From: Chrysaora quinquecirrha
Lineage: Eukaryota > Cnidaria > Scyphozoa > Semaeostomeae > Pelagiidae
Length of the DNA stretch: 64,000 bases
NCBI GenBank assembly: GCA_014526335.1
Contig: JACTAT010000331.1
Location: 55,342-119,341, forward strand
Direction of reading: 5' to 3'
A program made the translations under genes and the position numbers. Below, in pieces: positions 4,889-51,770 of this stretch. Under the pieces are notes generated by a model. That model saw only the letters and a list, made by a program, of their open reading frames with translations, made no database searches and was not told the origin of the DNA. Every line of letters starts with the position of its first letter. Position 1 is the stretch's first letter.

Positions 4889-7800
4889 TCAGTTCTCGTT
4901 AACAGGACTCAAGACAATTGTTCTACCATTGATTTTATTGGATTGCCTTCGACGTGATCTACGATGACCATCTTTTGGGGACTTGAAGTTATCTAAAAAG
5001 GACCAACCAAAATCAATATCCGTTGTATTTCCTTCAATAGACTGCTTCTAAGAGGCCTGGATCGGCGAGACATTTTTCTGGAAGATGGCGAACGCCTTGA
5101 GTAAGGGAATCCTCTCTGCGTGCAACGACCGAGATTGTGGTCGCTTTAAGAGAGGTATTGCAGCAACGTTTTCTTTAAATTCACAATGGAAGAAAAAGAG
5201 AGAGAAAAGCAATCTGCGACGATAGATTCGCTGTATGACCTCGACTGAAGCGACCGCAATGTAAGTCATTGCCTTCGGAGAGGATTCCCTTACTCAAGAT
5301 GTCCGCCATCTTGCAGAAGAATGTCACATCGACCCAGACCTCTTTGAAAACGTCCATTGATAATTTTTGTATAAAAGCCAACCATGTTTTTAGTGGTTAT
5401 TTCTGAGACATTCTCGGCGATCAAAATTCAACGAATACAGCAGATTTCGCAACAATCAAAACATTTTATCTTGTTTAGTTTTTGGCTTCCTCTTCTTTCA
5501 CGCTGACACAATGACACTAACTTAACTGTAAAATTCCAGCAACCAGATTTACTGGATATACCAATCAGAACACAACGATTGCTCAACTACATAGTTTTAA
5601 TTAAGCTGGTTAAATTTGCAGTGTAAAAATTCGTTAATCAGAGGATAAAATAAACAAATGACTTACCGGTGACATGATTACATCAGGTGATGATTGAGGC
5701 GATGGAGAAAAACCAGAATGAGGACTCTGTTGGTTTTCTTTTCCTGTTTTTCAAAATTTTAAGGCTTGTGAGCTAACAATTTTTTGAAGAAAATTGAGGG
5801 AAAATACGCGCAGTACGGAAAACATCTACCCGGTTATCAGATAGCGGTCACTATCCTGGACACTAGCGTAAGCTGATTTGCTAGTATTTTTAGAGAGAAC
5901 AAGCAATAGTGGACAGCCTTCGCTTTTCAAGGATTGGATATCTTAAATGAAATGACGGGGCAACTGTGGCTTGAATGAACTTAAATAGGAAAATATGCAC
6001 AAAATGAAATCCAGGAACAATGTCTATCCGATGAGCTTATTTTGCTCTTGGCAACTGATTTTTTGGTGTGCATTTGCCTTCGCCCAAGTATTGGTGGACG
6101 TTTAATTGTAAAAGATATTGTTTGTAGCTAAATACCTGTAGCTGGCGATCCGATGCTTCTCCTTGCCTTTGCAAACTTTTTTCTCAATGCATTAGCAATG
6201 ATATCAGCAGGATCATTCGAGGACGATGAATCATTCATTGATTTGACTTTCAAAGGAGTACCACCAGGTGATCTAAAAGTAACATTATAAGTCATTGTTT
6301 CCAACTCATTCAACAGAAAAAACCATATGATAGAACCAGGGAGAGTTAAATGTGAAGCAAATTAAAATTCAGTCAACTCTGTCTAATTCGAACAAGGGTT
6401 TGGAGAAAGTGTTTCATTAAAACTAAAAACGTCGCAGCACTGACACGGGTATTGTTGGCTATATGGAAACCACAGTCTTAAACTGTAGCAGAAAACTAAA
6501 AGAATAACCAATTGTGAAATAACATTACCTTTCTACATTTGATGGTTTCAATTTGATTGACGATAGACCAACAAGAACATCTTTCATTGAAGGCACTGAA
6601 TTTGTATTTTGTTGTTGGGTGTTGCTCTATCAAACAAGAAACATTTATTGATATTAAATTATTGGTTCCATTAGTATGTTTATTTAAGTTCATATGAATA
6701 TCGTTGATCTCCTTGACAGGTCAGACCAATCAGATAAAACGCTTGCTGCGTGTAAAATGTAATCTCGTAGAACTAGTCGTTACGCTTGGAAAACATTGAT
6801 AAGATGATGATGTTTATCCTGGTTCTTCAATTTTAATTTACCGCTTGTAGATGTTTTGAGCATACACTCCCCTTCCAAAAGTATCCGGACGATTGAACAA
6901 AATGGCCGCCAACGGCGGTCAAGGAGCCTAAGAGCAAATATTTTTACGACAATGTACAGAAGCCCCACAGACTTTTCATGAATGAAATTGGGCATGAAAA
7001 TGATCGCCATTGCACGGGCTTTCATCCTAAATGAAAACTTAAAGTTTATTTTATTGTTTCTATGAAAAAATTCAGGAAAACTTCGAAGCAGTACTTGCTC
7101 AAAAAAGGCAAAAAAATTTTCAGAGTTGTTTTCTAAAATAGCGATAAATATTACGATGTTTCAGCACATGCATGATGAATTTGAAATTTTTCAAAGCAGA
7201 AAGGGTTATATTTTATTGTTATGATAAAATTTTTTGTAAAGAAAGATTTTCCGTGAAAATTTCATGGGGGTAAAACCTTGAGTATGACTCCCATTGAGCG
7301 ATTTTAGAATCATCTTTTTAATACAGAAATTTGTTTGGCCATGTTATGGTGTTTGACATCGAAGATAAGCACAAATTTTCACAAAATCTCGAAAACTAAA
7401 TTAAATTTTTGATGTTTTCTTAATTTTAAAAGCCAATGGAGACTTCGTAAATGAAAAAATTTAAGTTTACAAAAAGCTACCTCTTTTTAGCATATGAAAA
7501 TTCCACTCACCTTGACTTATGTCAGGCCTTTACCCCTTGAAATTTTCACGGAAATTATTTCTTTACAAAAAATTTTATCATAACAATAAAATATAACCCT
7601 TTCTGCTTTGAAAAATATCAAATTCATCATGCATGTGCTGAAACATCGTAATATTTATCGCTATTTTAGAAAACAACTCTGAAAATTTTTTTGCCTTTTT
7701 TGAGCAAGTACTGCTTCGAAGTTTTCCTGAATTTTTTCATAGAAACAATAAAATAAACTTTAAGTTTTCATTTAGGATGAAAGCCCGTGAAATGGCGATC

Positions 7801-10800
7801 ATTTTCATGCCCAATTTCATTCATGAAAAGTCTGTGGGGCTTCTGTACATTGTTGTAAAAATTTTTGCTCTTAGGCCCCTTGACCGCCATTGGCGGCCAT
7901 TTTGTTCAATCGTCCGGATACTTTCGGAAGGGGAGTGTAGTCAATGTTTTGAGCAACTGATCATGCAGCTATTTTCAGTTGGTTTATGGTTTATTATTGC
8001 AGGTTTATTAATGCACCAATAGGCCTTTTAATTTAATAAACGCACTGCTCAAGGAGATGTGTGGATTTTTTGTGCTTTATTCAGGAAAAACTAATAAACA
8101 TGACTGTTTCTTAACAAAGAAATACGGAAGTCAGATTCAACTCACTTCTGGCTTTCGACGAGGCTTTGGTACAGGTTGCTGTGGCGGAGCTATCACTGGA
8201 GGAGGTGGAGGAGGAGGTGGCGGTGGAGGAGGAATCACTTCATTTGAAACTGCAACTAAAAAGATAAAAACAAATGAATATTTTGAAGCACACTGCATTG
8301 GCCTTTAATTTGTTGAATGTGCAAACGAATTAGGAGCCTTCAATCAGTTGTTTCCTCTTATTGAAAGGAAATTAGACAAAAAAGGTCTGAGCATTAAAGG
8401 GTAGATACAGTAGATAATTGCAAAGCACTGTTGAATTTATGAAGTTTTAGATAACAATATGTTGATATGCTAATTCTTCACAATCTCATGCATTAAATAA
8501 AAAGTCTCGGACGATCAAACTTTCGGACAATTTTGTCAAAAAATTTAACTGTTGGAGCGATCTAAAATCTCCTGAAAACTTGTCCGAAACTTTCTTGACA
8601 ATTGTTGTTCATGGATTTATTTTCTTTAAAAGTATGTGACACCCTTTTTCCCTTTATAACTGGATGCAAACTCCAGAAATCTACGATAATACGGTGGAAA
8701 ATATTGTATTTTGAAACATTGTTAACTAAAAAACAGAAGTTTCAGAAATGTTCTGAGAAAAGGGTTCAAAAGTTTTTGTCTGAAAATGTTTGTCAGAATT
8801 GTCTGTTTGAAACTTTTTGTTATTATGTGGCTACAACTCAACAAATTGCTTAGCATCTGCAACAATCTGAGGTCTTGCATTGCTCAGGTGTTGCATTGTT
8901 TCAGGCTGTCTGCATTAACATTGATACCTTCAAGATTTACTATAAGAGCATGGCATTAATTTTAAGGAAATATGGCAAGAAAAATGCAGTGTTTGGTAAT
9001 ACCTTGTGATTGTGCTGACACAATCAATGCAATCTGTGCTCGTAAATTTGCCAATTCATCTTCTAAGGCAATAATTTTCTTCTCAGATGAACCTTTTGCT
9101 CTTATTTTCTTCCCCTTTTTAATGCATCTTGGCTGCACCAACTCGTCTTCATGTGAAACTTCACTTATATGACTTAAACTAAGACCTGAGCTATCCAACG
9201 TTGATCTTGTGATAATATCTTTTCTATTGGAAGACTGTACTTCATCAAAACCATCCCATGAAAATAAGCCTATATCTGCAAGGCCCATCTCAGGCATATG
9301 TGACTTTACATTGTTAAAATTGTCTGCAACAAATGTTTTCGCTTTGCTCATTAATTGACGGTTGGACTCACAAAATATCTGTAAAAGATAAAATAAATCT
9401 GTTAAAGTTGCACAGGAAGGGTCTAAGAAATGGAGGAAAATAGTGTATGAAATGTTTGAGTGAGCTCAAACTGGAAGAGATTTTACAACATAGGTGACGG
9501 TGAAGGATGTTCTAGCACCAGTTGCTAGGATCTCCGTAGCAGGTTAACGAATCGAGACCTCAACCCTAGTTGTGATGCTTCCATGGCTGGGCTTGAACCC
9601 ACACCACAATTCAGCTGGATTACACCATGATGCCACAACACCTTCAAGCATGAAATGGTACCTTCCTAGAGTAGTGAAGAAACAATTCAATTCAATAAAA
9701 AAGTAACTTCTTACTTGAAAGTATGCTCTTTTTGATGGCTTCAAAGGCAATTTACTAGCAATCATTCGAACAAGACTTCGATTGTTGAATTTTCTTCTTT
9801 TTCTTGGTTCCTGTTTATTTGTTTTCCACAAAACGTAAGAAGCAATCATTCTCACGATACTCTTTTTGGAGCCTTTCATAAATTTCCTTTTCATCCATAA
9901 ATACGTTCCATTTTCCTCTATTTTCATCAATGATTTATTTGGCTTAAATCCATCCTAAAACAAACAACAGGGGTGACATTAATATCACAAATAAAGGAAG
10001 ATATAATCATGTTATCAATAAAACTTCAAATAAATGATCCCTTCTTTGATAAATTATACCATTTCAAAAGTTTAACCTTATTTTTCTTTAATCAAGGGGT
10101 GTTTCCCATATGTCTTAACTAGGGAAGGGCATACTCAGGGCTGTAGCTTTGAAGCAGTGTGAGGGTGTGACAACCCCCCTCCCCCCAAGGCCAGTTATCT
10201 GCTTGGCAAATTTGAGAAGCACTCGGTTTTTTGGGATTCAATTCAATTCAATTCTTTTTTATTTGTAGAAATACAATTTACAATAACAAAACTAACAATT
10301 CCAAAAAGATTGGTTTTAATGATGAAAAATAGGTTTGAAAAGTAACAATAAATTTGCCAAGGAAAGGTCAATCAAACAATCAAAGCCACAACCATTAAAA
10401 AAGCCATGCCCATTTTGACAGCAAAATAAGGAGCCACACCCCCCTCTGTCATTGAGCCCTAGCTATGGCCCTGGCAGAGGTGCCAGAAGCATGAGCGCAG
10501 CAGGGGCAATCGCCTCTAAGGTGCTGTGGCTTTGTGGTGTAACCCAGCTGACTCGTGGTGTCAGAAGCTCAGTGTGGTCATGGTTCGAGCCCAGCCACGG
10601 TAGCGTCACAGCCAGGGTCGAGGTCTCAATTAGTTAACCTACTACTGAGATCCTAGCGACTGGCGCTCAAATACCACATCACTTTCACCTTCACCTTCAC
10701 CCTCCTTGCCACCTTGCCCTCGTGAAAAAATTAACTTCTTTGATTTTCCTATTGTTTTACCCTCAATTTGTTGTTTCTGCCCTGGCTGCCTGGTGTCCCA

Positions 10801-13295: not shown

Positions 13296-13740
13296 ATCAG
13301 ATCATTCAAATGTTTATAAAAAATTACTTCGAGATAAATTAACTTCAAGCAAATTTATCATCTGTGAATCAAATTTACCTATATCAAGCGTCAGTTAGTT
13401 GTTTTGTCAAATGTTTTTGTTTCAGGATAGTAGATTTTCTGCTTATGGCAGTAAAGTAAAAAAGTTTTTGGTATCCAGGTTGATTTTTTGCTTTGCTTTA
13501 AATTTCATTATAATTAACCTTATGCTATGTCATTCTTTGTAAATATGTACTTTAATTTTGAATTGTTAGATGAAATCATCAAATTTTACGATTTGCTCTG
13601 TTCGATCTCTGAAGCTGTTTTAGAGATGGCTACACTGGGCATGCGCAGCAGGGGCCCGCCCGCGTGGTGGCATCCCAGCATTCTTAGCGCGCGCGCGCAG
13701 TGACTTGAGTTCATGATCGGCGATCGCATGGTTGTGAACA

Positions 13741-14223
13741 ATGGCGGACGCAATAGATATCGTCATTGATGATGAAGAATTCCATGATGAAGGCGAAGAA
13801 GATCTCAAAAAGCTGAAGTCATCAGTAACGAAACGTAAAGGCAGAGGATTCAAGGATTCTTCAACAAGAAGGGAGCATGAGAAATATGAAAGCATTTATG
13901 ATGAAGACATAGATGAGGCAGGCCCGGCTCGTTCTGTGGAAGGTTGGATTTTATTTGTAACAAATGTACATGAAGAAGCTCAGGAGGATAACATACGAGA
14001 TTCATTTGAAGAATATGGACAAATTAAAAATGTTCATCTGAATCTTGATAGAAGAACTGGATTTTTAAAAGGTTACGCTCTTGTTGAGTACGAGACGTTC
14101 AAAGAAGCACAAAATGCATTGGAAGGCCTCGATGGTGGTGAAGTATTAGGCCAAACAGTCAAAGTTGATTGGGCGTTCGTAAGAGGACCAACCAGTGGAA
14201 AAAAGCATGGAAGAAAGAAGTAA
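13741..14223 (+). CDS. RBM8A: RNA-binding protein 8A (Y14), exon junction complex core
   Basis: Uninterrupted 160-aa ORF. An acidic N-terminus (MADAIDIVIDDEEFHDEGEED) and basic segment precede a single RRM at about residues 64-145, with RNP2-like WILFVTNVH and RNP1-like KGYALVEYE; the tail ends VRGPTSGKKHGRKK. This is the Y14 layout (human 174 aa). Y14 pairs with MAGOH and marks spliced mRNA upstream of exon junctions in the nucleus. The ATG context is AACAATGGCGG. The preceding 100 bp are G+C-rich with GCGCGCGCGC, unlike the surrounding A+T-rich DNA, probably a CpG-rich promoter. The gene is intronless here; it sits 445 bp after the ARMC1 stop on the same strand. Confidence 0.96.
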   Translation: MADAIDIVIDDEEFHDEGEEDLKKLKSSVTKRKGRGFKDSSTRREHEKYESIYDEDIDEAGPARSVEGWILFVTNVHEEAQEDNIRDSFEEYGQIKNVHLNLDRRTGFLKGYALVEYETFKEAQNALEGLDGGEVLGQTVKVDWAFVRGPTSGKKHGRKK

Positions 14224-30779: not shown

Positions 30780-30986
30780 ATCACAAACTAACTAACTAAC
30801 TAACTAACTAATCAACAAAATAACTAACTAACTAACCAACTTACTAACTAAATAACTAACTAACTAACTAACTAATCAACAAAATAACTAACTAACTAAC
30901 CAACTTACTAACTAAATAACTAACTAACTAACTAATTAATCAACAAAATAACTAACTAACTAACCTACTGACTAACCAACTAACTG

Positions 30987-31031
<45 letters not shown>

Positions 31032-31295
31032 ACAGGTAACTAAATAACTAACTAACTGACTAACTAACAAACTAAATAACTAAATAATTAACTACTTAAC
31101 TAACTAGCTAACTAACTAACTTACTTAACAAATTAGCTGACTGACAAACTAATAACTAACTGACTAACTATCTTACTAAAAAACTAACTAAATAACTAAA
31201 AGCTAATAATTAACAAACCAACTAAATAAATAAATAAACAACAAACCAACTAACAAACTAACTAAAAAACTAACAAACTAACGAACCAACCAACT
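30780..31295. repeat. (TAAC)n microsatellite array
   Basis: About 510 bp of CTAA/TAAC tetranucleotides with interruptions, including a near-duplicate 60-bp block (AACTAATCAACAAAATAACT) three times. It starts about 65 bp after the polyadenylation signal of the small peptide gene. Confidence 0.95.
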
Positions 31296-31479
31296 AAGTT
31301 GTACCTAAAATCCTCCAGTATAACCAAATCTCGAGTAAGACCCAAATGAAGAGCTAAGTGAAAGTCTCAGATATCTCTCAACTACTTAAAATATAGAAAA
31401 AGCTAGTGCTGACAAGTCTCGCTATGAATAAAACCATTAATCAGTTACCAGCTTTAGCTAGCAGCTAATAGACATTTTC

Positions 31480-32783: not shown

Positions 32784-35597
32784 TTAGCGATCAAAATCCT
32801 CTTGAAAATCATTTACTTTTAAATTTTCCATTCCATGCTCCTCTTCTTCTGCTTCTTTAAATATTGAATTTGTGTAGAAATTCCCAGTGTACAAAGAAGC
32901 CAAGCTATCTCCCAGCATATTATCAGAGATATTATCATCTTCGTGAACTTTCCCATATGCTAGAATGCGGAATCTTTTTCCTGACCTTGGCAGCTCAATT
33001 TCTCGCCGTCCTGATCTTGGCAGCTCAATCTCTTTTCGTCCTGATCTTGGCAGTTCAATTTCTCGTTGTCCTGATCTTGACAGCTCAATCTCTCTTCGTC
33101 CTGATCTTGGCAGCTCAACGTCTCTCTTTCCTGAACTGGGCAGCTCAATTTTTCTCTTTCCTGATCTTGGCAGTTCAGTCTCTCGTCGTCCTGATCTTGG
33201 CAGCTCAATCTCCCGTCGTCCTGATCTTGGCAGCTCAATGTCTCTCTTTCCTGATCTTGGCAGCTCAATGCCTCTCTTTCCTGATCTTGGCAGCTCAATC
33301 TCCCGTCGTCCTGATCTTGGCAGCTCAATTTCTCGTCGTCCTGATCTTGACAGCACAGCCTCCCGTCGTCCTGATCTTGGCAGCTCAATCTCTCGTCGTC
33401 CTGATCTTGGCAGTGCAATCTCTCGTCGTCCTGATCTTGGCAGCTCAATGTCTCTTCGTCCCGATCTTGGCAGCTCAATGTCTCTCTTTCCTGATCTTGG
33501 CAGCTCAATCTCTCGTCTTCCTGATCTTGGCAGCTCAATCTCTCTTCGTCCTGATCTTGGCAGCTCAATCTCTCGTCTTCCAGATCTTGGCAGCTCAATC
33601 TCTCGTCTTCCTGATCTTGGCAGCTCAATCTCTCTTCGTCCTGATCTTGGCAGCTCAATGTCTCTCTTTCCTGATCTTGGCAGCTCAATCTCTCGTCTTT
33701 CAGACCTTGGGAGCTCAGCCTCCCGTCGTCCTGATCTTGGCAGCTCAATCTCCCGTCGTCCTGATCTTGGAAACTCAATGTCTCTTCGTCCTGATCTTGG
33801 CAGCTCAATGTCTCTCTTTCCTGATCTTGGCAGCTCAATCTCTCTTCGTCCTGATCTTGGCAGCTCAATGTCTCTCTTTCCTGACCTCGGCAGCTCAATC
33901 TCCCGTCGTCCTGATCTTGGAGGCTCATTCTCTCTTCGTCCCGATCTTGGCAGCTCAATGTCTCTTCGTCCTGATCTTGGCAGCTCAATCTCTCGTCGTC
34001 CTGATCTTGGCAGCTCAATCTCTCGTCGTCCTGATCTTGGCAGCTCAATCTCTCGTCGTCCTGATCTTGGCAGCTCAATCTCTCGTCGTCCTGATCTTGG
34101 CAGCTCAATCTCTCGTCGTCCTGATCTTGGCAGCTCAACCTCTCGTCGTCCTGATCTTGGCAGTTCAATGTCCCGTCGTCCTGATCTTGGCAGCTCAGCC
34201 TCTCGTCGTCCTGATCTTGGCAGTTCAATGTCTCTCTTTCCTGATCTTGGCAGCTCAATCTCTCGTCGTCCTGATCTTGGCAGCTCAATGTCTCTCTTTC
34301 CTGACCTTGGCAGCTCAGCCTCCCGTCGTCCTGATCTTGGCAGTTCAATCTCTCTTCGTCCTGATCTTGGCAGTTCAATGTCTCTCTTTCCTGATCTTGG
34401 CAGTTCAACGTCTCTCTTTCCTGATCTTGGCAGTTCAACGTCTCTCTTTCCTGATCTTGGCAGCTCAACCTCTCGTCGTCCTGATCTTGGCAGTTCAATG
34501 CCTCTCTTTCCAGATCTTGGCAGCTCAATCTCTCTTCGTCCTGATCTTGGCAGTTCAATGTCTCTCTTTCCAGATCTTGGCAGCTCAGTGTTTCTCTTTC
34601 CTGATCTTGGCAGCTCAGCCTCTCGTCGTCCTGATCTTGGCAGCTCAGTGTTTCTCTTTCCTGATCTTGGCAGCTCAACCTCTCGTCGTCCTGATCTTGG
34701 TAGTTCAATGCCTCTCTTTCCAGATCTTGGCAGCTCAATCTCTCTTCGTCCTGATCTTGGCAGCTCAACCTCTCGTCGTCCTGATCTTGGCAGTTCAATG
34801 CCTCTTTTTCCAGATCTTGGCAGCTCAATCTCTCTTCGTCCTGATCTTGGCAGTTCAATGTCTCTCTTTCCAGATCTTGGCAGCTCAGTGTCTCTCTTTC
34901 CTGACCTTGGCAGCTCAACCTCTCGTCGTCCTGATCTTGGCAGTTCAATGCCTCTCTTTCCTGATCTTGGCAATTCAATGTCTCTCTTTCCAGATCTTGG
35001 CAGCTCAGTGTCTCTCTTTCCAGATCTTGGCAGCTCAATCTCTCTTCGTCCTGATCTTGGCAGCTCAGTGCCTCTCTTTCCTGATCTTGGCAGTTCAATG
35101 TCTCTCTTTCCTGATCCTGGCAGCTTAATGCTTCTCTTTCGTGATCTTGGCAGCTCAATTTCTCGTCGTCCTGATCTTGGCAGCTCAATGTCTCTCTGTT
35201 CTGATCTTGATATTTCAACTTCTTGTCCTGCATTTGAAAACGTCGGTTGATACGCGCCAGAATCTTCGGTTTGCAGTCTTTGAACAGTGGCTGTTGGATT
35301 TCCATCTAGCTTATTTTGCAATTTACCAAACTGATGAAATTCGCTGATAAGATTCACAAGTGCTAACTTACAAATGGTGTTATCAAGAGGAGAAGACGTT
35401 CCACAGTACCTTTCAAGTTCTTCAACAAGTTGTAACAACAAACTACTTGTAGAATCTTTTGATAGTTGCTCAATGTCGTTGTTTCTTTCATTGTTCCTTT
35501 CTTTTATCCAGTATCCGTAATTAAACTCACCACGGGAGATATGAAGCAATTGATAAAATGCAAGCATACACAGCATAAAAACTCTAGTGAAATTCAT
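32784..35597 (-). CDS. Giant neuropeptide precursor with about 74 tandem IELPRS-amide units
   Basis: Single-exon ORF of 937 aa. It begins with a signal peptide (MNFTRVFMLCMLAFYQLLHI, cleavage near SRG-EF), then about 100 residues of spacer with two cysteines (RYCG...TICK), then an array at about residues 127-876 of a 10-residue unit: (E/D/G)-(I/A/V/T)-E-L-P-R-S-G-(R/K)-R. Each unit ends in Gly plus a dibasic site, so prohormone convertase cleavage and amidation should give xIELPRS-NH2. A few units are degenerate (for example RSRKR, KLPGSGKR, PPRSGRR, AVLSRSG, LPSSGKR). The tail of about 60 residues is acidic. A TATTTAAG at about 35,719-35,712 could be its TATA element. The C-terminal P-R-X-amide resembles the cnidarian X1PRX2amide family (for example hydrozoan PRP- and PRG-amides), which is an inference from the motif only. 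Codons vary between units, so this is expressed coding repeat, not simple satellite. Confidence 0.9.
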   Translation of the reverse strand: MNFTRVFMLCMLAFYQLLHISRGEFNYGYWIKERNNERNNDIEQLSKDSTSSLLLQLVEELERYCGTSSPLDNTICKLALVNLISEFHQFGKLQNKLDGNPTATVQRLQTEDSGAYQPTFSNAGQEVEISRSEQRDIELPRSGRREIELPRSRKRSIKLPGSGKRDIELPRSGKRGTELPRSGRREIELPRSGKRDTELPRSGKRDIELPRSGKRGIELPRSGRREVELPRSGKRDTELPRSGKRDIELPRSGRREIELPRSGKRGIELPRSGRREVELPRSGRREIELPRSGKRGIELPRSGRREVELPRSGKRNTELPRSGRREAELPRSGKRNTELPRSGKRDIELPRSGRREIELPRSGKRGIELPRSGRREVELPRSGKRDVELPRSGKRDVELPRSGKRDIELPRSGRREIELPRSGRREAELPRSGKRDIELPRSGRREIELPRSGKRDIELPRSGRREAELPRSGRRDIELPRSGRREVELPRSGRREIELPRSGRREIELPRSGRREIELPRSGRREIELPRSGRREIELPRSGRRDIELPRSGRRENEPPRSGRREIELPRSGKRDIELPRSGRREIELPRSGKRDIELPRSGRRDIEFPRSGRREIELPRSGRREAELPRSERREIELPRSGKRDIELPRSGRREIELPRSGRREIELPRSGRREIELPRSGRREIELPRSGRREIELPRSGKRDIELPRSGRRDIELPRSGRREIALPRSGRREIELPRSGRREAVLSRSGRREIELPRSGRREIELPRSGKRGIELPRSGKRDIELPRSGRREIELPRSGRRETELPRSGKRKIELPSSGKRDVELPRSGRREIELSRSGQREIELPRSGRKEIELPRSGRREIELPRSGKRFRILAYGKVHEDDNISDNMLGDSLASLYTGNFYTNSIFKEAEEEEHGMENLKVNDFQEDFDR
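32971..35220 (-). repeat. 30-bp coding minisatellite of the peptide array
   Basis: Unit GATCTTGGCAGCTCAAT-type on the plus strand, 30 bp, about 75 copies in perfect register: each 60-base stretch from 33,001 to 35,160 holds exactly two units, so no indel has accumulated across 2,160 bp. Confidence 0.97.
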
Positions 35598-37412: not shown

Positions 37413-38579
37413 TTAAAAAATTTTGCATCATGACATGTTTTAGCAAGATATTCAAACATGAAAGCCCATCTGCAACAAGGTTTCACTACGTTTATGAAAG
37501 ATAGCTTAGCCTTGATAAGAAAATTGCGAAAATTGTTGACAAATAGTCTTATGATTCAAATAAAAACACAAGAAAAGATAAGGATAATCAACATCTGCCA
37601 TCGTCTAGATGAAAACATTCTACTCATATCACTCAAAACTGATGAAAATCATCATCATTACAGAAATATATTTGATAATTTGAACGTAATAGATTCTGAT
37701 GGCTGCTAAAGTAATTCGTTTCTTAAACTAATTTGTTTATTAAGTATTTAACGCTAACATTAAACTATTTCAAATTGAAATTTCTCGTTTAATAAAGGGT
37801 CGATGCTAACATTTTGAAGAGTTTCAATGATGTATAAGTCTCGGTGAGAATACGACAATAAGAGCAAGAAAAATACCATTCATTTCCGAAGGCACCAGCA
37901 TGTTTCTCCCTAAATGGTTACAGGACGATTTTCTATCTACTTACAGATCAATTTGACAAGCAAGCAAAATAATGGTTCCTAGACTCAAATGACGTCCCAA
38001 GACGAAGCAATAAACATTATTTACGTTGTTTATCATCCCAACACCTAATTTGGCAACATCGTTGGACATTACTTGCAATAAATGTTGCTTAGCTTAAGTA
38101 TCGTTTTAAGATACGTAGTGCTCCTCATTGTTTCAAGGACAAGCCGAAGGATAAGCCATACAGCAAGTCTCTATAGAAAAGACGCAAGCACACTCTTTCT
38201 TTCATTTTTTTGTTTACATCGCTAACATTGTCTGTAAGGTGTAAGGGGTAGCGCCCAAGCAAAAGGTTAATGACTTGTAACGCTACCTTGAAACCGTCAT
38301 TCAGCATAACAGTGAGAGCAAAATAAAAGCACAAAACATCAAAATAAGATAGCCGCCTAGTTCAACTGTCAAAATGTCATTGTAGTGTATTAAACGTTAG
38401 CTACAAGTTGACATCACGCATGGCAAGGATAGTTTTAATGAAGCACTGTTTTACTGTTCGTTAGGTGTAGGTTCTGATAAATTATAAGCTCAGCTAAAAA
38501 AAGTTATATGCTTCCTGGCAAAGAACCAATTCGATTTAAGAAAATCAAATGATAGTTAAAAGGAAAGACAAAATCTGTA
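37413..38579. other. Intergenic stretch without recognised features
   Basis: Short ORFs only (for example 83 aa at 37,458, unrecognised). Nothing supported. Confidence 0.45.
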
Positions 38580-38580
38580 C

Positions 38581-39262
38581 TGATGATATCCCCCGCAGCA
38601 CTGATGATATGCCCCCACAGTACTGACGATATCCCCCACAATACTCAACACACTCCACAGTACTGATGATATCCCCCACAGTACTGATGATATCCCTCAC
38701 AGTACTGAACACCCTCCACAGTACTTATGATGTCCCCCACAGCACTGATGATATGCCCCCACAGTACTGATGATATCCCGCACAACACTGAACACACTCC
38801 ACAGTACTGATGATATCCCCCGCAGCACTGACGACATGCCCCCACAATACTCAACACACTCCACAGTACTGATGGTATCCCCCACAGTACTGATGATATC
38901 CCCCACAGTACTGAGCACTGTCCACCGTACTGATGATATCTCCACAGTACTGATGATATCCCCCACAGTACTGATGATATCCCCCGCAGTACTGATGATA
39001 TCCCCCACAGTACTGATGATGTCCCCCACAGTACTGATGATATCCCCTACAGTACTGAGCACTGTCCACCGTACTGATGATATCTCCACAGTACTGATGA
39101 TGTCCCCCACAGTACTGATGATATCCCTCACAGTACTGAACACCCTCCACAGTACTGATGATATCTCCACAGTACTGATGATATCCCCCACAGTACTGAT
39201 GATATCCCCCCCACAGTACTGAACACCCTCCACCGTACTGAATATTCTCCACAGTACTCGAC
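38581..39262. repeat. Minisatellite, 21-bp unit CAGTACTGATGATATCCCCCA
   Basis: About 30 variant units in 680 bp, with alternates reading CTGAGCACTGTCCACCG and CTGAACACCCTCCA. Open frames of 150-183 aa run through it in several frames because the unit length is divisible by three; none looks like a real protein. Confidence 0.95.
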
Positions 39263-39763: not shown

Positions 39764-42700
39764 TTAGTTCACTTGATAATTTGTAGATAAAAGGTGTAAT
39801 TTAAGTTTGGAGCGAAAATTCATGCTTGAGGGAGATAGCTTGATTAAATAGGGGATATCATTCCAGGTCTTTGCACCTGCATATCTGATGGATCTTAATC
39901 CATACAAAAAGGTATTTTCTTGAGTCATGAAAATATCACCTTTAGAAGCCTGCCGTGTATTATACTGATGAACAGAAGACAAAGTTTCGAAAAAATTGTG
40001 AAAACAGACGGGAGAAATCTTGTTCACAGATTCGTAAACAAAGATGAGTAGCTTTAAATAAAACAAATCATATAATTTAAGAATTTTGAAATCAGCGAAT
40101 ATTGGTGTGGATGGAGAAGTAAAAGACTTGAATGCAATAGCTCTAAGAACTTTCTTTTGTAGAAGATATATTGGTCTGGTATGTACTTCATAAGTAAGAC
40201 CCCAGACAACAATACCATATTGAAGAAATGAAGAGAACAAAGAATTATAAAGAGATATTAGAATACTAGCTGGTAGAAGATGTCTTATTTTAAAGAACAC
40301 ACCACATGTTCTTGAAAGCTTCTTGGATAGTTCACACAGATGGTACTTCCAGCTAAGATGTTCATCTAATAGCAAGCCAAGAAACTTGACATGTTTAGCT
40401 TGTCTGATATGTTGATTTCCAATTTTAATATTTAGACTTTCACTCAAAGAATTTTGCACAGAATGAAAAACAACAAAGTTTGTTTTTCCAACATTAAGAA
40501 ACAAGTTTGTTAGCATCCAGCCACTTTTTGACATGTCTAAGTTCCTTATTGACAACTTTTTGAAGATGATCTAAAGTATCTGATTCAAAGTAAATGTTTG
40601 TATCATCAGCAAAAAGATAGAAAGAAAGTTTTGAAGAGGAGTTAGGAAGATCATTTATGTAAATTAAAAACAGAAGTGGGCCAAGAACAGACCCTTGTGG
40701 TACACCACATTTAATATTCAGAAGATCCGACTTACAACCATTTACTGATACATACTGACTTCTGTTACTAAGGTAGGAACTAAACCATGCCAAAGCTGTA
40801 CCTCGAATGCCATAATGTTCAAGTTTGTCAAGTAGAATTTTATGATTAACAGTATCAAAAGCTTTTTGCAAATCAAGGAAAATTCCACATCCAAATTTTT
40901 TGTTATCTAAACTGTTTTTTATTGATTCAGTTAAACTAATTAAAGCATGATTTACTGAGTGATTAGCACGAAAACCGAATTGGAGATCATACAGAATTTT
41001 ATGTTCTTCCAAAAAATTGTATAATCGTTTATGCATCAATTTCTCTGTAATTTTACTGAATACAGAAAGCAGAGATATTGGTCTATAATTTGAAGCAAAC
41101 AAAGGGCTACCCTTTTTGTACAATGGAATAACTCTAGCTTGTTGCATTTTTACAGGAAAGATACCAGACTGGAAAGACTCATTAATGATATCAGATAGAG
41201 GTGAAGAAATACAAACAGAAAGAATTTTTAATAGTTTAATGGGGATACTATTTGGACCGGTCGACTTACCAACTTTTAAGAGATTTATTATATCTGAAAT
41301 TTCATATGGAGCTGTAGGAGAAATGAAAACGTACTAGGATTACTCATATCAAGATAATTTAGGGGGGACTTGGGGGATCTGGGTATATTTTTTGTGACAT
41401 CATCAGCTACATTGACAAAAAACTTATTAAATGTATTAGCCATAGTTGTAGAATCAGTCGTTGGATTACCATTTGAATCCTTCAGCTTGCTGATAAGATT
41501 TGTACTAGATTTTTTAATGCTAATAATTGACTTTATTCCCGACCATAAAAGTTTCATGTTGTTACCATTAGAAGTAAAATAATTCTGAAAATAAGATTTC
41601 TTGCTCTCTTTAAGTTCACAAGCAACTCGGTTTCTAAATTTTTTATATGCAAGATTTACTACTGGATCAGGCTTCTTTTTGAGCTTTTTTAGTAATTTAT
41701 CTCTTAATTTTATCATTTTTCTAATCTTGCTATTTATCCATGGTTTATTTTGCAATTTAATATCCTTTTTTGTAAGCTTCTTCAATGGAGCATGCTTTTC
41801 AACAAAGCTTTCGAGGGTTGCAAGAAATTTATTAAATTTTGAATTTATGTCACTCTGGTTGTCATTCAAATAATCAAATTTAAGATTATTAAAATCTGCA
41901 AGAAATTTTTCTTGATCAAAGTTTGAATAATCATGTTGGTAATATGACATAGTTTTATTTGATAACACCACCTTTTGACAATTAAAACTGAGGAAAATGA
42001 TCAGCAATTTGTGTCAAAATGTTTCCACTTTTGGTATCTAAATCACATACATTGGAGAAGATATTATCAATAATGGTAGAAGAATAATCTGACACTCGCG
42101 TAGGATGGATAATATAAGGTAAGTAATGGAGCGAGAGAAGAAGACTGACAAAATCATTGGTAGCACTATGAGAGTCATAATTTATTAAGTTGATATTGAA
42201 ATCCCCTAAAATGAAGACATGCTTATTCTCGACAGAAGGGTTGGACAATGTCCTTTGAAGGTACTCGGTAAAGTTTCCTATTTCAGTACTTGGATGACGA
42301 TAGGCACAACAAACCAAAATGTTTTTATCTCTAGAATTTTCAATTTCACCCAGATTGTCTCATACTCATCACAATTACTATCTAGTTCTGGTTTTGGAAT
42401 GGCACCCAAACATGTTTTGATGTAGAGACCAACACCGCCATTTTGAGATTGAGATTTAGCGAAAAAAGGTATATCCTTCAATGTCAACATTTGTGCTCAA
42501 TGGTCGATCGAATGAATCCCAAGTTTCAGAAACAGCAACAACATCAAGGCCAATTTTAAGGTTAACTAACAAGGAATGTAGTTCATCAAAATGACAAGAG
42601 AGACTTCTTATATTCATATGCAAGAAAGAAAGATCATTATGAGAAGTATCAGAGGAAGATAATTCTTGAACAGTATGATAGCTTGAATCAATATTAGAAG

Positions 42701-43052
42701 GAAAATGTTCATCAATATCATAATCTTGCAGGTTAGGTAAGTTAGTAAGGTGAGATGTTATTTCAAATGAGGGTAATGTATCAATAAGGGAGGGTATATC
42801 ATGTTCGAAAAGGTTTAATAATGGTTCGTCCTCAATCGCACCAAAAGGAAAAATGGATTTGTGATATGCTATAGTGCAATTAAGACAAAACCATGGAACA
42901 TCATCAGGTTCCTTGGAAAGTGCTTCATATTCCTTAACCGAAATGTCATTGCACTTTATATGCTGCCAAAAGTTGCATCGGTTGCAAAGAATACCATTTT
43001 TAGTTACACTTTTGTGACAGGTGCCACATGGGTAATTATTAGCTCTTACCAT
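39764..43052 (-). pseudogene. LINE ORF2 (PHD-endonuclease-reverse transcriptase), frame-disrupted
   Basis: Segments in order: 43052-42456 (PHD finger and start of endonuclease), 42490-42278, 42317-41982 (endonuclease GDFNI and DHFP), 42007-41288 (linker), 41147-40494 (reverse transcriptase palm with FADDTN), 40555-39764 (thumb and C-terminus). Shifts between segments mean no full-length protein is made. Confidence 0.8.
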
Positions 43053-43166
43053 TTGGGCCTATAAATTAAAATAAACAAAATTGAGTGAAAATGAACTAAG
43101 CTGAAAAAACAAAAAAAAAAAAAGAAAAAAAAACACAAATTTGGTTTGATGACAGTCCTTAATAAA

Positions 43167-43859
43167 TTAGTCCTTAAAACTAATTTCATTGTCACTTACG
43201 GCGGCTGCTGCACCTACCGCTGCTGCATCTGTAGCATTTTCCCCATTTCCTTCACTGTGTACGTGTGATTGTCTGATTTTGGTATCCGGCGGCTTATCTT
43301 TTATGACTAGACGGTCAAGGACAAAAAAAGCATCTTTCCCCCTCTGTCTTGCCCTTATGAGGTCATCAACTTGACTTTGACGTTTCAACAATGTTCTTTG
43401 TGACAAATCATTGAAGAACATGATCCCTTTTGGTTTCAGTTGGCGTGCTTTCTTCACAATCATTTCTTTTGTCTTCCATGATCTCAGCTTTGCAACAATG
43501 GGCCTAGGTTTAGGTTTTTGGTTGGTATTGCCAGACCTGTTCACATTCTTTTGAAAACGGCCTACACGGTGGGCTCTTTCAATTTCAAAATCATCCGAGA
43601 TGCCAAGCTCAGATTTTACCAAATCCTTAACCTTATTCTCAGTTTCATCCCAAGATTTCTCGTCAGGACTCTCTGGGACCCCAAGGATTTTCAGATTATT
43701 TCTCCTGGACTGATTTTCCAGATATTCAGTGTGGTCAGCGATGTCTTCGAAGCCTTCGTTCACATAAGCTTCAAATCGATCCACTTTTTGCACTAAACTT
43801 GCTGTTTTAGCCTCATGACCTTTCAGTTCAACTTTTATCGAATCGTTATCGTTGCTCAA
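43167..43859 (-). CDS. LINE ORF1 protein (L1-ORF1-like)
   Basis: Intact 230-aa ORF. Residues 1-45 form a heptad-type coiled coil, then ENQSRRNNLKILGVPE, AHRVGR, and RPIVAKLRSWKTKEMIVKKA, the RRM/C-terminal-domain type features of L1-like ORF1 nucleic-acid-binding proteins. It is followed on the same strand by the PHD/EN/RT ORF2. Confidence 0.8.
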   Translation of the reverse strand: MSNDNDSIKVELKGHEAKTASLVQKVDRFEAYVNEGFEDIADHTEYLENQSRRNNLKILGVPESPDEKSWDETENKVKDLVKSELGISDDFEIERAHRVGRFQKNVNRSGNTNQKPKPRPIVAKLRSWKTKEMIVKKARQLKPKGIMFFNDLSQRTLLKRQSQVDDLIRARQRGKDAFFVLDRLVIKDKPPDTKIRQSHVHSEGNGENATDAAAVGAAAAVSDNEISFKD

Positions 43860-44929
43860 AATGAGATGGATTTCACAACTTCATTCAAGTCTTTTCTCAG
43901 CTCTTTAATTTCTGTCTTGACATCGTTCATGAATAACTGGAGCGAAGAGCGATAGGCCTGATCTTGAATTTCCAGCATCTGCTTGAGAATACTAAGTGTA
44001 ACTGTATCGTTACCAGACATGACTTGTTAATTAAATTTAAAACTTCCTGAACGTATTTTATTAAAACTATGGTTACTAACAACATTAATATTTCACGAGA
44101 TAGTGACAACAGGCCAGTTTGATTTTATTTTACCACGCCCACGCGGCAACTTACGTCTGTCCGCCATCTTAACTTGGTAACCAAACGTTGTCCTTTTAAT
44201 TTCTTTACTCTCCTTTCCTAACTCAGACCAATCAAGAACCTCAGAATCTAGTGAAAGTTTAAGAGTTAAGAATATTTTTTCAACAACCCATCCTAAGCAT
44301 GATTCAACTATTTCTGAGTAATTGGTAGAGCAAGATTTTTGTTTCATTCAAGCATTTTGGAATATGTTCATATAGCATTTTGTCAAGACAGAAAGAGTAT
44401 GTTTTCTGATTTTGACTTTCAATCAATTCTGTTGGTCATCGGAGCTGCTTGCCATTTAAGATACAATACACATCCAGCTTTGCTTTTCTGTTTGGGGTAT
44501 TTTTAAAGCCATCTTGCTATATATTTTGCCTCAGTCACTTCTTTTTCGAATTTTTCTGCTTAAACTCTGAGGAGTGTGCGACAACAAAATCTTTAAAGTA
44601 TGCTCAAAGATTTTTCTGGTTTTGCAACTTCTGTGTTAACTTCTGTGTTACTGTTTTTGGGTCAACTTGAGGGATTGGCCTACCTTTTATTTTTGTGTCT
44701 ACTTTTTAAGTCTTGATGAAATTTCTATTAATAAAAAAATCAATGAAAATAGCAAAGTTTGCCTCACCTCAACAAGCAAGAATGATCTTGACGGCATGAA
44801 TTTTCTTGCAGGAATTCATTGTAAAGATCGAACCATGATGATGCCAATTCAAAGAACCAGGGAATGTTGCTGGTCCAATTTTGGCTATGAACAAAGTCTC
44901 TTTTTGTCATGACAGAAGGGTTAACTACC

Positions 44930-46661
44930 AATTCAGAAATACCATCTTATCGGCCCTAATCAGATAGGATTTCTAAAGGAGTATAGAACAACTGACCATG
45001 TTTTTGTGGTTAACACACTCATAAATAAAATTGTGAAAGATAAAGGAAAAGTTCTATATTCTGCCTTCATAGATTTACGCAAGGCATTTGACACTGTGAG
45101 TAGAAATGCTCTTATTAACAAACTATGGTCATTCGGGATAGATGGTAAATTTCTGGAAACTATTAAAGCTATGTATACGTCTGTTTACCAATGTGTTAAA
45201 TTACAAAATTTCATATTACAACCGATAGTTTCCAAAAGAGGTCTGAAGCAAGGTTGCAATATCTCACCCTTACTATTTAACTTATTCATAGAGGACATAA
45301 AATTCGACTTTGATGAAACATGTGATCAAGTTGCACTGGATGGGACAAACTTTAGTCATCTACTATATGCAGACGATTTGCTACTATTCTCGACTTCCCC
45401 AGAAGGCTTGCAAACCTGTTTGGACAGATTAAAAGATTACTTTCATAAATGGGGGCTTGAAATAAACTTAAAAAAAAGTAATGCTATTTGTTTCTGCAAG
45501 ACGGGGAAAATACCGAAAGATGTTAGCTTTAGATTTGGAGATGAAAAACTTCAATTGAGTAGTAGATATAAATACCTAGGAACCCTATTATCGTCTTCTG
45601 GATCGTATTTCCCAAATATTGAGAATCTTTGCGACAAATCCAGAAAAGCATACTTTTTACTGAGAAAGATTTTGGAAAAAACTGATTTCAATCCGAACAT
45701 AAGCTTGAAAATTTTTGACACAGCTATAAAGCCCATACTCTCTTACAACTGTGAAATATGGTCTCAGCTTAATCCTCGTCAACTTAGAGTTCTTAAAGCA
45801 AAAGATCCAAACAACGCTAAAAATTTTATCTTTACGTCATATTTACAGGAGACAGAATTGCAGCATCTCCGATTTTGTAAAATTATTTTGGGAGTGAGAA
45901 AAAGCTGCTCAAATGTAGCTGTTTTGGGTGACCTGGGTAGATTTCCCTTGAAACTATATTGTTTGCAGCAAATGTTCATGTATTTGCACAGGTTAATTAA
46001 CTTTAAAGAATCGAGCCTGGTCAATAAAGCCCTCAACGAAAGTATGAACCTTTGCCAAAACAAAAAATTTAGCTGGGTATCGTCCACTTGCCAATTACTT
46101 AAAACTTTTGGACTTGACTATGATCTTGAAAGGCTTAGAAGGACAAAGAAAAGTCGTTTCAAGTCTCTGATAATTAGAACCCTTAAAAGAAGCTATGATA
46201 GCTTTTGGTCCGATACGGTAAAATCTCCAATTGGAACATCCCAAAAAGGAGGTAATAAACTGCGTTCGTATAGTGATTTCAAGCAATGCATAAAAGCAGA
46301 GCCTTATTTACAAATCAAGGAAAGAACATTGAGAAAATCAATGGCAAAATTCAGATGTAGTGACCACAGTCTGAGAATTGAGACTGGCAGAAGAGAGGGT
46401 ATTCTTCCTACATCTAGGATCTGCTTGCAATGTGATAGTGGAGAAACTGAAGACGAACTCCACTTTCTTACATCATGTGTCAAGTACAACACCTTACGTG
46501 AAAAACTATATGACCTTTTGAGAATCGACTCTAAATATTTCGATAACTTGCCACAGGAACAAAAATTCATATTCATTCTTTCTAATGAAAAGAAGGAAAT
46601 AGTTTTGGACGTGGCTAAATTTATAAGAGACGCATTTAACCTTCGTTCAAAAGTAACCTGA
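44930..46661 (+). mobile_element. 5'-truncated LINE with a long intact reverse transcriptase ORF
   Basis: The frame is open from about 44,945 (GPNQIGFLKEYRTTDHVF) to the stop at 46,661; the first Met is at 45,006 (551 aa). RT motifs are SAFIDLRKAFDTV, RGLKQGCNISPLLFNLFIEDI, LLYADDLLLFS and KYLGTLLSS. A C-terminal C-x2-C...H...C knuckle (CLQCDSGETEDELHFLTSC) follows, as in several non-LTR clades. The upstream endonuclease is absent. The clade is not the CR1 type at 39.5-43.9 kb. Confidence 0.8.
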
Positions 46662-50894: not shown

Positions 50895-51770
50895 TTTCAA
50901 AAATAAATGCGCAAACCTACCAAAAACCTCGAATTAGGAAGAAAAATTTTTCCCGAAAAAACAGCAAAATAGTAATACCGTAGCCCAGGAAAATGGCATA
51001 AATCAGCCAAAATAAGAGGTTTTGAAAACCCGCTTTTTCTTCAAAAATAAATGCGCAAACCTACCAAAAAGCTCCTAAATAGCTCTTAGGGGTATATAAA
51101 GTATTTTCTGATCAGATAAAGTCGAATTAGGAAGAAAAATTTTTCCCGAAAAATCAGCAAAATAGTAAGTCTATAGCCCAGGAAAATGGCCTAAAATCGG
51201 CCAAAATCAGGGGTTTTGAAAACCCGCTTTTTCTTCAAAATAAATGCGCAAACCTACCAAAAAGCTCCTAAATAGCTCTTAGGGGTATATAAAGTATTTT
51301 CTGATCAGAGAGAGTCGTATTAGGAAGAAAAATTTTTCCCGAAAAATCAGCAATATAGTAAGTCTATAGCCCAGGCAAAAGGCCTAAAATTGGCCAAAAT
51401 CAGGGGTTTTGAAAACCTGTTTTTTTCTTCAAAAATAAATGCGCAAACCTACCAAAAAGCTCCTAAATAGCTCTTAGGGGTATATAAAGTATTTTCTGAT
51501 CAGATAGAGTCGTATTAGGAAGAAAAATTTTCCCGAAAAATCAGCAAAATAGTAAGTCTATAGCCCAGGAAAATGACCAAAAATAAGCCAAAATCAGGGG
51601 TTTTGAAAACCCGCTTTTTCTTCAAAAATAAATGCGCAAACCTACCAAAAAGCTCCTAAATAGCTCTTAGGGGTATATAAAGTATTTTCTGATCAGATGA
51701 AGTCGAATTAGGAAGAAAAATTTTTCCCGAGAAATCACGAAAATTGTAAGTCTATAGCCCAGGAATAAGA
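50895..51770. repeat. Tandem satellite, unit about 195 bp, five copies
   Basis: The phrase AAATAAATGCGCAAACCTAC recurs at about 50,901, 51,046, 51,240, 51,435 and 51,628. Units carry CTCTTAGGGGTATATAAAGT, TTAGGAAGAAAAATTTTTCC and GTCTATAGCCCAGGAAAATG. The first copy lacks about 50 bp. No coding potential. Confidence 0.9.

Follow-up and report, generated by a model that had tools for sequence, protein, structure and literature searches.

Which peptide, and how many copies of it, would be released from a protein that consists mostly of one ten-residue unit repeated in tandem? The question is raised by a minus-strand gene of the scyphozoan Chrysaora quinquecirrha, found in a stretch of 64,000 nucleotides of contig JACTAT010000331.1 (hereafter, the window) and initially annotated as a giant single-exon peptide precursor. 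For the coding frame, the single exon was borne out: 937 codons run uninterrupted to a TAA, with no internal stops. The putative leader is hydrophobic over approximately residues 3 to 18 (best 11-residue hydropathy mean, 1.94), but a stretch starting at residue 74 scores 1.89. The 74 repeat units and their glycine-dibasic sites support the proposed plan of a secreted, multicopy precursor of amidated peptides (Table 1). The gene is very probably a scyphozoan X1PRX2amide preprohormone yielding mostly LPRSamide, for which we infer expression, cleavages, amidation, a receptor, and a function.

Table 1. Coordinates of the precursor gene and its parts within the window
Feature	Position	Strand	Basis or remark
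Complete precursor coding frame, 937 aa + TAA	32784..35597	-	ATG at 35597, TAA at 32786-32784
Putative signal peptide, aa 1-23	35529..35597	-	Hydropathy; putative cleavage site
N-terminal spacer region, aa 24-135 (112 aa)	35193..35528	-	Similar to P0001, P0004, P0005, P0006
Conserved spacer core, aa 49-87, two cysteines	35337..35453	-	Invariant columns in 5 sequences
74-unit ten-residue array, aa 136-875, consensus [ED]IELPRSG[RK]R	32973..35192	-	66 amidatable LPRS sites
C-terminal tail, 62 aa, starts FRILAYGK	32787..32972	-	Frame translation
AATAAA, possible polyadenylation signal, 26 bases past the stop codon	32753..32758	-	Motif

The array contains exactly 74 units, as had been estimated, and each is exactly 10 residues long; Tandem Repeats Finder recovers it as a period of 30 with 74.4 copies (score, 2725). 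The array is not a product of chance, and its diversity at the DNA level, with 48 different sequences for the 74 units, speaks against assembly stutter. The strict form, xxxLPRSG[KR]R, is found in 65 of the 74 units; the other nine deviate from LPRSG[KR]R, and G[KR]R is kept in 70. There are 68 XPRXG[KR] sites, with 66 LPRS cores, one PPRS, and one FPRS, each followed by glycine, and the processing tripeptides at these sites are GRR (n = 42), GKR (n = 25), and GRK (n = 1). The plan behind the predicted release of over 70 amidated heptapeptides stands, but 68 sites, not all 74, are amidatable. The residues at unit positions 1 (42 E, 22 D, 6 G, 2 N, 1 S, and 1 K) and 2 (54 I, 8 V, 6 T, 5 A, and 1 N) vary as described initially, whereas position 3, which is E in 71 of the 74 units, and the LPRS core are far more constant. 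The residue directly preceding the XPRX core is E at 67 of the 68 sites and A at the remaining one. When all pairs of units are compared, the LPRS codons have a pN/pS of 0.14, the glycine-dibasic codons one of 0.26, and positions 1 and 2 one of 2.51, values that describe a pattern and are no test of selection because the units share descent, and hence are not independent, and because positions 1 and 2 offer few synonymous changes. Approximately nine in ten DNA differences at positions 1 and 2 change the amino acid, and position 9 swaps K and R. Identity between units exceeds the shuffle limit (0.864, 95% of the maxima from 500 shuffles) only at lags 5 (0.870) and 14 (0.867) among the 30 lags, a weak sign that the array was built partly by block duplication.

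In the genome (328 Mb in 740 contigs), a second, near-identical frame was found on another contig, C242, encoding 797 aa with 60 units, 52 of which are strict. Relative to the window frame, it differs by two amino acids in the N-terminal 135 residues and by one in the 62-residue tail. Unit-by-unit alignment of the two arrays, with self-chosen scores, gave 59 pairs, 50 of them identical in DNA; the 60-unit copy lacks runs of 10 and 4 units and one single unit, and it carries one unit that the window array does not have. The flanking sequences are likewise colinear, with the orientation reversed (window, ∼49,900 to 1; C242, ∼10,756 to 68,506), in blocks that are 84 to 99% identical with indels between them (listed blocks, ≥300 bases on the minus strand). 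Outside gaps, the two copies are 99.2% identical over the 1 kb upstream and 97.6% identical over the 1 kb downstream. On the simplest reading, the C242 copy probably represents the second haplotype, which the assembly did not collapse; a possible alternative is a recent segmental duplication. A 193-bp tandem repeat is present in approximately four copies at positions 50929 to 51765 of the window and occupies ∼10 kb at the matching end of C242 (89 to 10756).

Three neuropeptide families are attributed to the common cnidarian ancestor, and one of them, the X1PRX2amides, is described as little known (PMC6909153). Several of the features by which membership in this family was judged are present in the precursor: similar peptides followed by GR or GK, of which at least three are expected, number 68; P and R occupy core positions 2 and 3, with X2 among S, A, and G and an amide-donor glycine behind it; dibasic sites stand at most units; and the residue before the core, almost always E, is an acidic or known N-terminal processing residue. 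Membership is supported by this anatomy and by the relatives P0001 and P0004 to P0006 described below. The initially suggested kinship with the cnidarian X1PRX2amides holds, given LPRS cores with glycine and dibasic sites here and scyphozoan LPRSamide-type precursors in print (PMC6909153). The same source contradicts the supposition that an IELPRS-amide was undescribed: it reports, for three scyphozoans, multicopy precursors that have GKR or GRR sites and encode LPRSamide or similar sequences, and the Chrysaora precursor is very probably a new member of this already published class. As described, the preprohormones of Nemopilema, Rhopilema, and Aurelia (X1PRX2amide family #1) resemble ours in their peptides, their sites, their many copies, and the acidic or small residues before the core; for published scyphozoan LPRSamide-type precursors in general, these residues are given as acidic or other (PMC6909153).

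Other systems are more distant. Anthozoan GPRGamide preprohormones likewise encode X1PRX2amides in very high copy number, but with GPRG rather than LPRS as the core (PMC7523074). The maturation-inducing hormones of Clytia, for example, WPRPamide, are amidated XPRX tetrapeptides with a known GPCR and act in oocyte maturation (PMC7053711). Their last residue is P, A, G, or Y, whereas ours is S, and their copy numbers are lower; one Clytia precursor, for example, bears six RPRPamide and six WPRPamide. Octocoral GPRRamide precursors have GPRR cores, single basic sites, and DEIT ahead of the core; ours has LPRS cores and dibasic sites, and DEIT is absent. Protostome pyrokinins end in FXPRLamide, and no PRL core occurs among our 68 sites.

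When the whole precursor was searched against approximately 5.8 billion proteins, a single relative stood out clearly, P0001 (522 aa; E = 2.6e-81). P0002 (E = 2.8e-15) and P0003 (E = 3.5e-8) were dropped as ELP/LPD-rich proteins with one glycine-dibasic tripeptide each and no repeated site. The spacer of P0001 in turn retrieved P0004, P0005, and P0006, plus P0001 itself, and all four proteins bear XPRX repeats with glycine-plus-basic sites. In P0001, 17 of 19 sites are LPRS, as are 12 of 16 in P0004 and 14 of 17 in P0005, with a few variants, and P0006 carries 12 YPRS and 9 MPRS cores (21 of 21 sites). The unit is conserved in the relatives as far as the PRS core and the glycine-dibasic site are concerned, but IE is not kept. 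The residue ahead of the core is E at 1 of 19 sites in P0001, at 13 of 16 in P0004, and at 14 of 17 in P0005; in P0006, it is acidic (D or E) at 16 of 21. With A, S, K, F, I, V, or E at this position, P0001 does not conserve the acidic cut. The form KR-ELPRSG occurs among the units of P0004 and P0005.

The relatives also share the region ahead of the array. In BLASTP, the window spacer scores 53.1 to 57.4 bits against the four relatives' spacers, compared with 20.8 to 22.3 bits for the best of 100 shuffles each, and the invariant positions of the five sequences follow the pattern STS.LLL.LV..LE.YCGTS...D...C..AL..L...F, which includes YCGTS and the second cysteine. Judged from these alignments, a two-cysteine spacer common to P0001, P0004, P0005, and P0006 is a new element, and Pfam gave no match to it at E ≤ 1. 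An AlphaFold model of the spacer is of low confidence (mean pLDDT, 49; pTM, 0.28). When the window spacer itself was the query, 183 candidates were scored and not one reached E ≤ 1; P0001 was also missed, although the two spacers align directly; because P0001, at 522 aa, lies inside the length range of that search, the result says little about other giant precursors.

In the proposed processing, the signal peptide would take the chain into the secretory pathway, prohormone convertases would cleave after KR or RR, a carboxypeptidase would remove the basic residues, and PAM would convert the exposed glycine to a C-terminal amide. These convertase, carboxypeptidase, and PAM steps are in part general knowledge. 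Cleavage at the acidic residue, a step proposed for cnidarian precursors elsewhere, would take off the E/D-I-E ahead of the core; the published cnidarian rules comprise cutting at KR or RR, amidation via glycine, and trimming at the preceding residue, by an enzyme that a review states is not known in Cnidaria. Each chain could then give approximately 66 LPRSamide, one PPRSamide, and one FPRSamide. LPRSamide would be protected by the proline at position 2, and the peptides would be released from neurons, probably to act on PRXamide-type GPCRs. Further published background was drawn from PMC9545775, PMC11087051, and PMC6756747.

The ligand is likely the tetrapeptide LPRSamide rather than the heptapeptide EIELPRSamide put forward initially, since IE is not kept in the relatives and tetrapeptides are the potent published forms. 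PRGamide is reported to activate at least 13 receptors in Nematostella, with EC50 values of 1.6E-10 to 4.5E-8, and at the two receptors tested with longer PRGamides, these were weaker than the tetrapeptide; the Clytia receptor is described as responding to tetrapeptides and only poorly to penta- and tripeptides. Likewise, variation at positions 1 and 2 had been taken to generate a family of related ligands, but these residues are probably trimmed, which would leave mostly LPRSamide. The same precursor might instead be cut at its dibasic sites only, giving full heptapeptides (EIELPRSamide, DIELPRSamide, and others). This outcome, which we consider unlikely, would fit the dibasic sites between almost all units, the near-constant E at position 3, the E before most cores of P0004 and P0005, and the longer PRGamide forms that mass spectrometry detected in Nematostella; against it stand the absence of a conserved IE in the relatives, the KR-ELPRSG units, which are too short for a heptapeptide, and the potency of tetrapeptides in both Nematostella and Clytia. 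Because the PRGamides found by mass spectrometry were longer forms, partial processing is possible.

A secreted repetitive protein of matrix, mucus, or defense, in which the repeats are structural and remain uncut, is very improbable. The low complexity of the repeat would suit such a protein, as would Extensin_1, the sole Pfam match to the precursor at E ≤ 1, which was read as a match of composition since its 23.6 bits fall below the curated cutoff of 105; however, the glycine and two basic residues are present in 70 of the 74 units, the glycine-dibasic site is kept in four relatives, and neuropeptide precursors of the same plan are published (PMC6909153). An accidentally open minisatellite can be practically dismissed: the array is stop-free in two sense frames and in one antisense frame, and a single stop interrupts a further antisense frame, but frames other than the coding one are kept open by the 30-base length of the unit and are taken as by-products, whereas the leader and tail are in frame in both copies of the locus, the spacer is conserved in the relatives, and synonymous differences outweigh nonsynonymous ones in the LPRS codons.

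With an LPRSamide preprohormone as the preferred reading, the copy number is, as initially supposed, at the extreme end. The 68 XPRX copies exceed the 50 of the Stylophora GPRGamide precursor, the largest published number found and one called an “impressive number” by its source (PMC7523074), and, compared by description, they also exceed the up to 32 copies per preprohormone given for scyphozoans (PMC6909153). Among the matches listed in a literature search, which were phrase matches, mostly off topic, and no full survey, none was a neuropeptide precursor that exceeds 50 copies. The new aspect is a copy number that is extreme and probably also allelically variable, with 74 units against 60. 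The yeast alpha-factor gene MFalpha1 is alike, with no sequence kinship, in having intragenic peptide repeats whose number varies among alleles, from 3 to 6 in the alleles compared, against 74 and 60 units here (PMC5850478). According to the same source, which tested repeat number against signaling for this pheromone, more than approximately six repeats bring no extra pheromone, and length-dependent translation is given as the cause. The more than 10-fold-higher repeat number in Chrysaora suggests that a different limit applies or that unequal exchange lets the array drift. A more speculative idea, to which we give little credence, is that the difference between haplotypes of 74 and 60 units reflects an intragenic coding minisatellite that sets a heritable, rapidly mutating dose of LPRSamide, with the two-cysteine spacer aiding the sorting or folding of the long chain. 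If this were true, peptide output per translation would go far beyond the six-repeat plateau of alpha-factor. With approximately 66 identical tetrapeptides per chain and two array lengths in one assembly, the locus poses the question of whether neuropeptide repeat number alters signaling strength.

Two further neuropeptide genes were recognized in the same genome. The QWLRGRFG pattern has 19 matches, all at one locus (C190:223000-225500) and none in a reversed control; the locus encodes a GRFamide precursor in a 364-aa frame with 19 QWLRGRF units. The peptide pQWLRGRFamide is given for Scyphozoa and Cubozoa (PMC6909153) and also for some hydrozoans (PMC8638164). The PMCWFR pattern has three matches, all in one 303-aa frame (C257:4494700-4496200) and none in the control, in the cyclic-peptide units CSSSPMCWFR-GR, CNSPMCWFRI-GGKR, and CASPMCWFR-GRR. 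The published consensus is CxSPMCWFRx for scyphozoans and CxGQMCWFR for cubozoans (PMC6909153). All three units contain the SPM of the scyphozoan form, but the first has an extra residue between the cysteines, and the first and third lack a residue after WFR, an ending that is cubozoan-like. Taken with the LPRS cores, these markers assign the genome to a scyphozoan strongly, if not conclusively.

Several other features were noted in the window. An Rfam scan at gathering scores gave no matches. A single-exon frame at 13738 to 14223 (plus strand) encodes RNA-binding protein 8A (E = 5.2e-57 to PDB 5xjc_w; RRM_1), and two exon-like frames at 8962 to 9954 (minus strand) match Mitochondrial fission regulator (PF05308). 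RVT_1 frames at 39764 to 43880 (minus strand) and 44925 to 46661 (plus strand) are apparent remains of non-LTR retrotransposons, and a PHD-finger frame lies upstream of the former. The precursor gene is flanked by two further arrays, (AACT)n of 512 bases (30786 to 31297) and a 21-bp repeat in approximately 33 copies (38577 to 39258). Finally, an inverted pair of 126-aa frames (6780 to 7160, minus strand; 7642 to 8022, plus strand) is alike over the first 99 residues, with four differences, and unlike thereafter.
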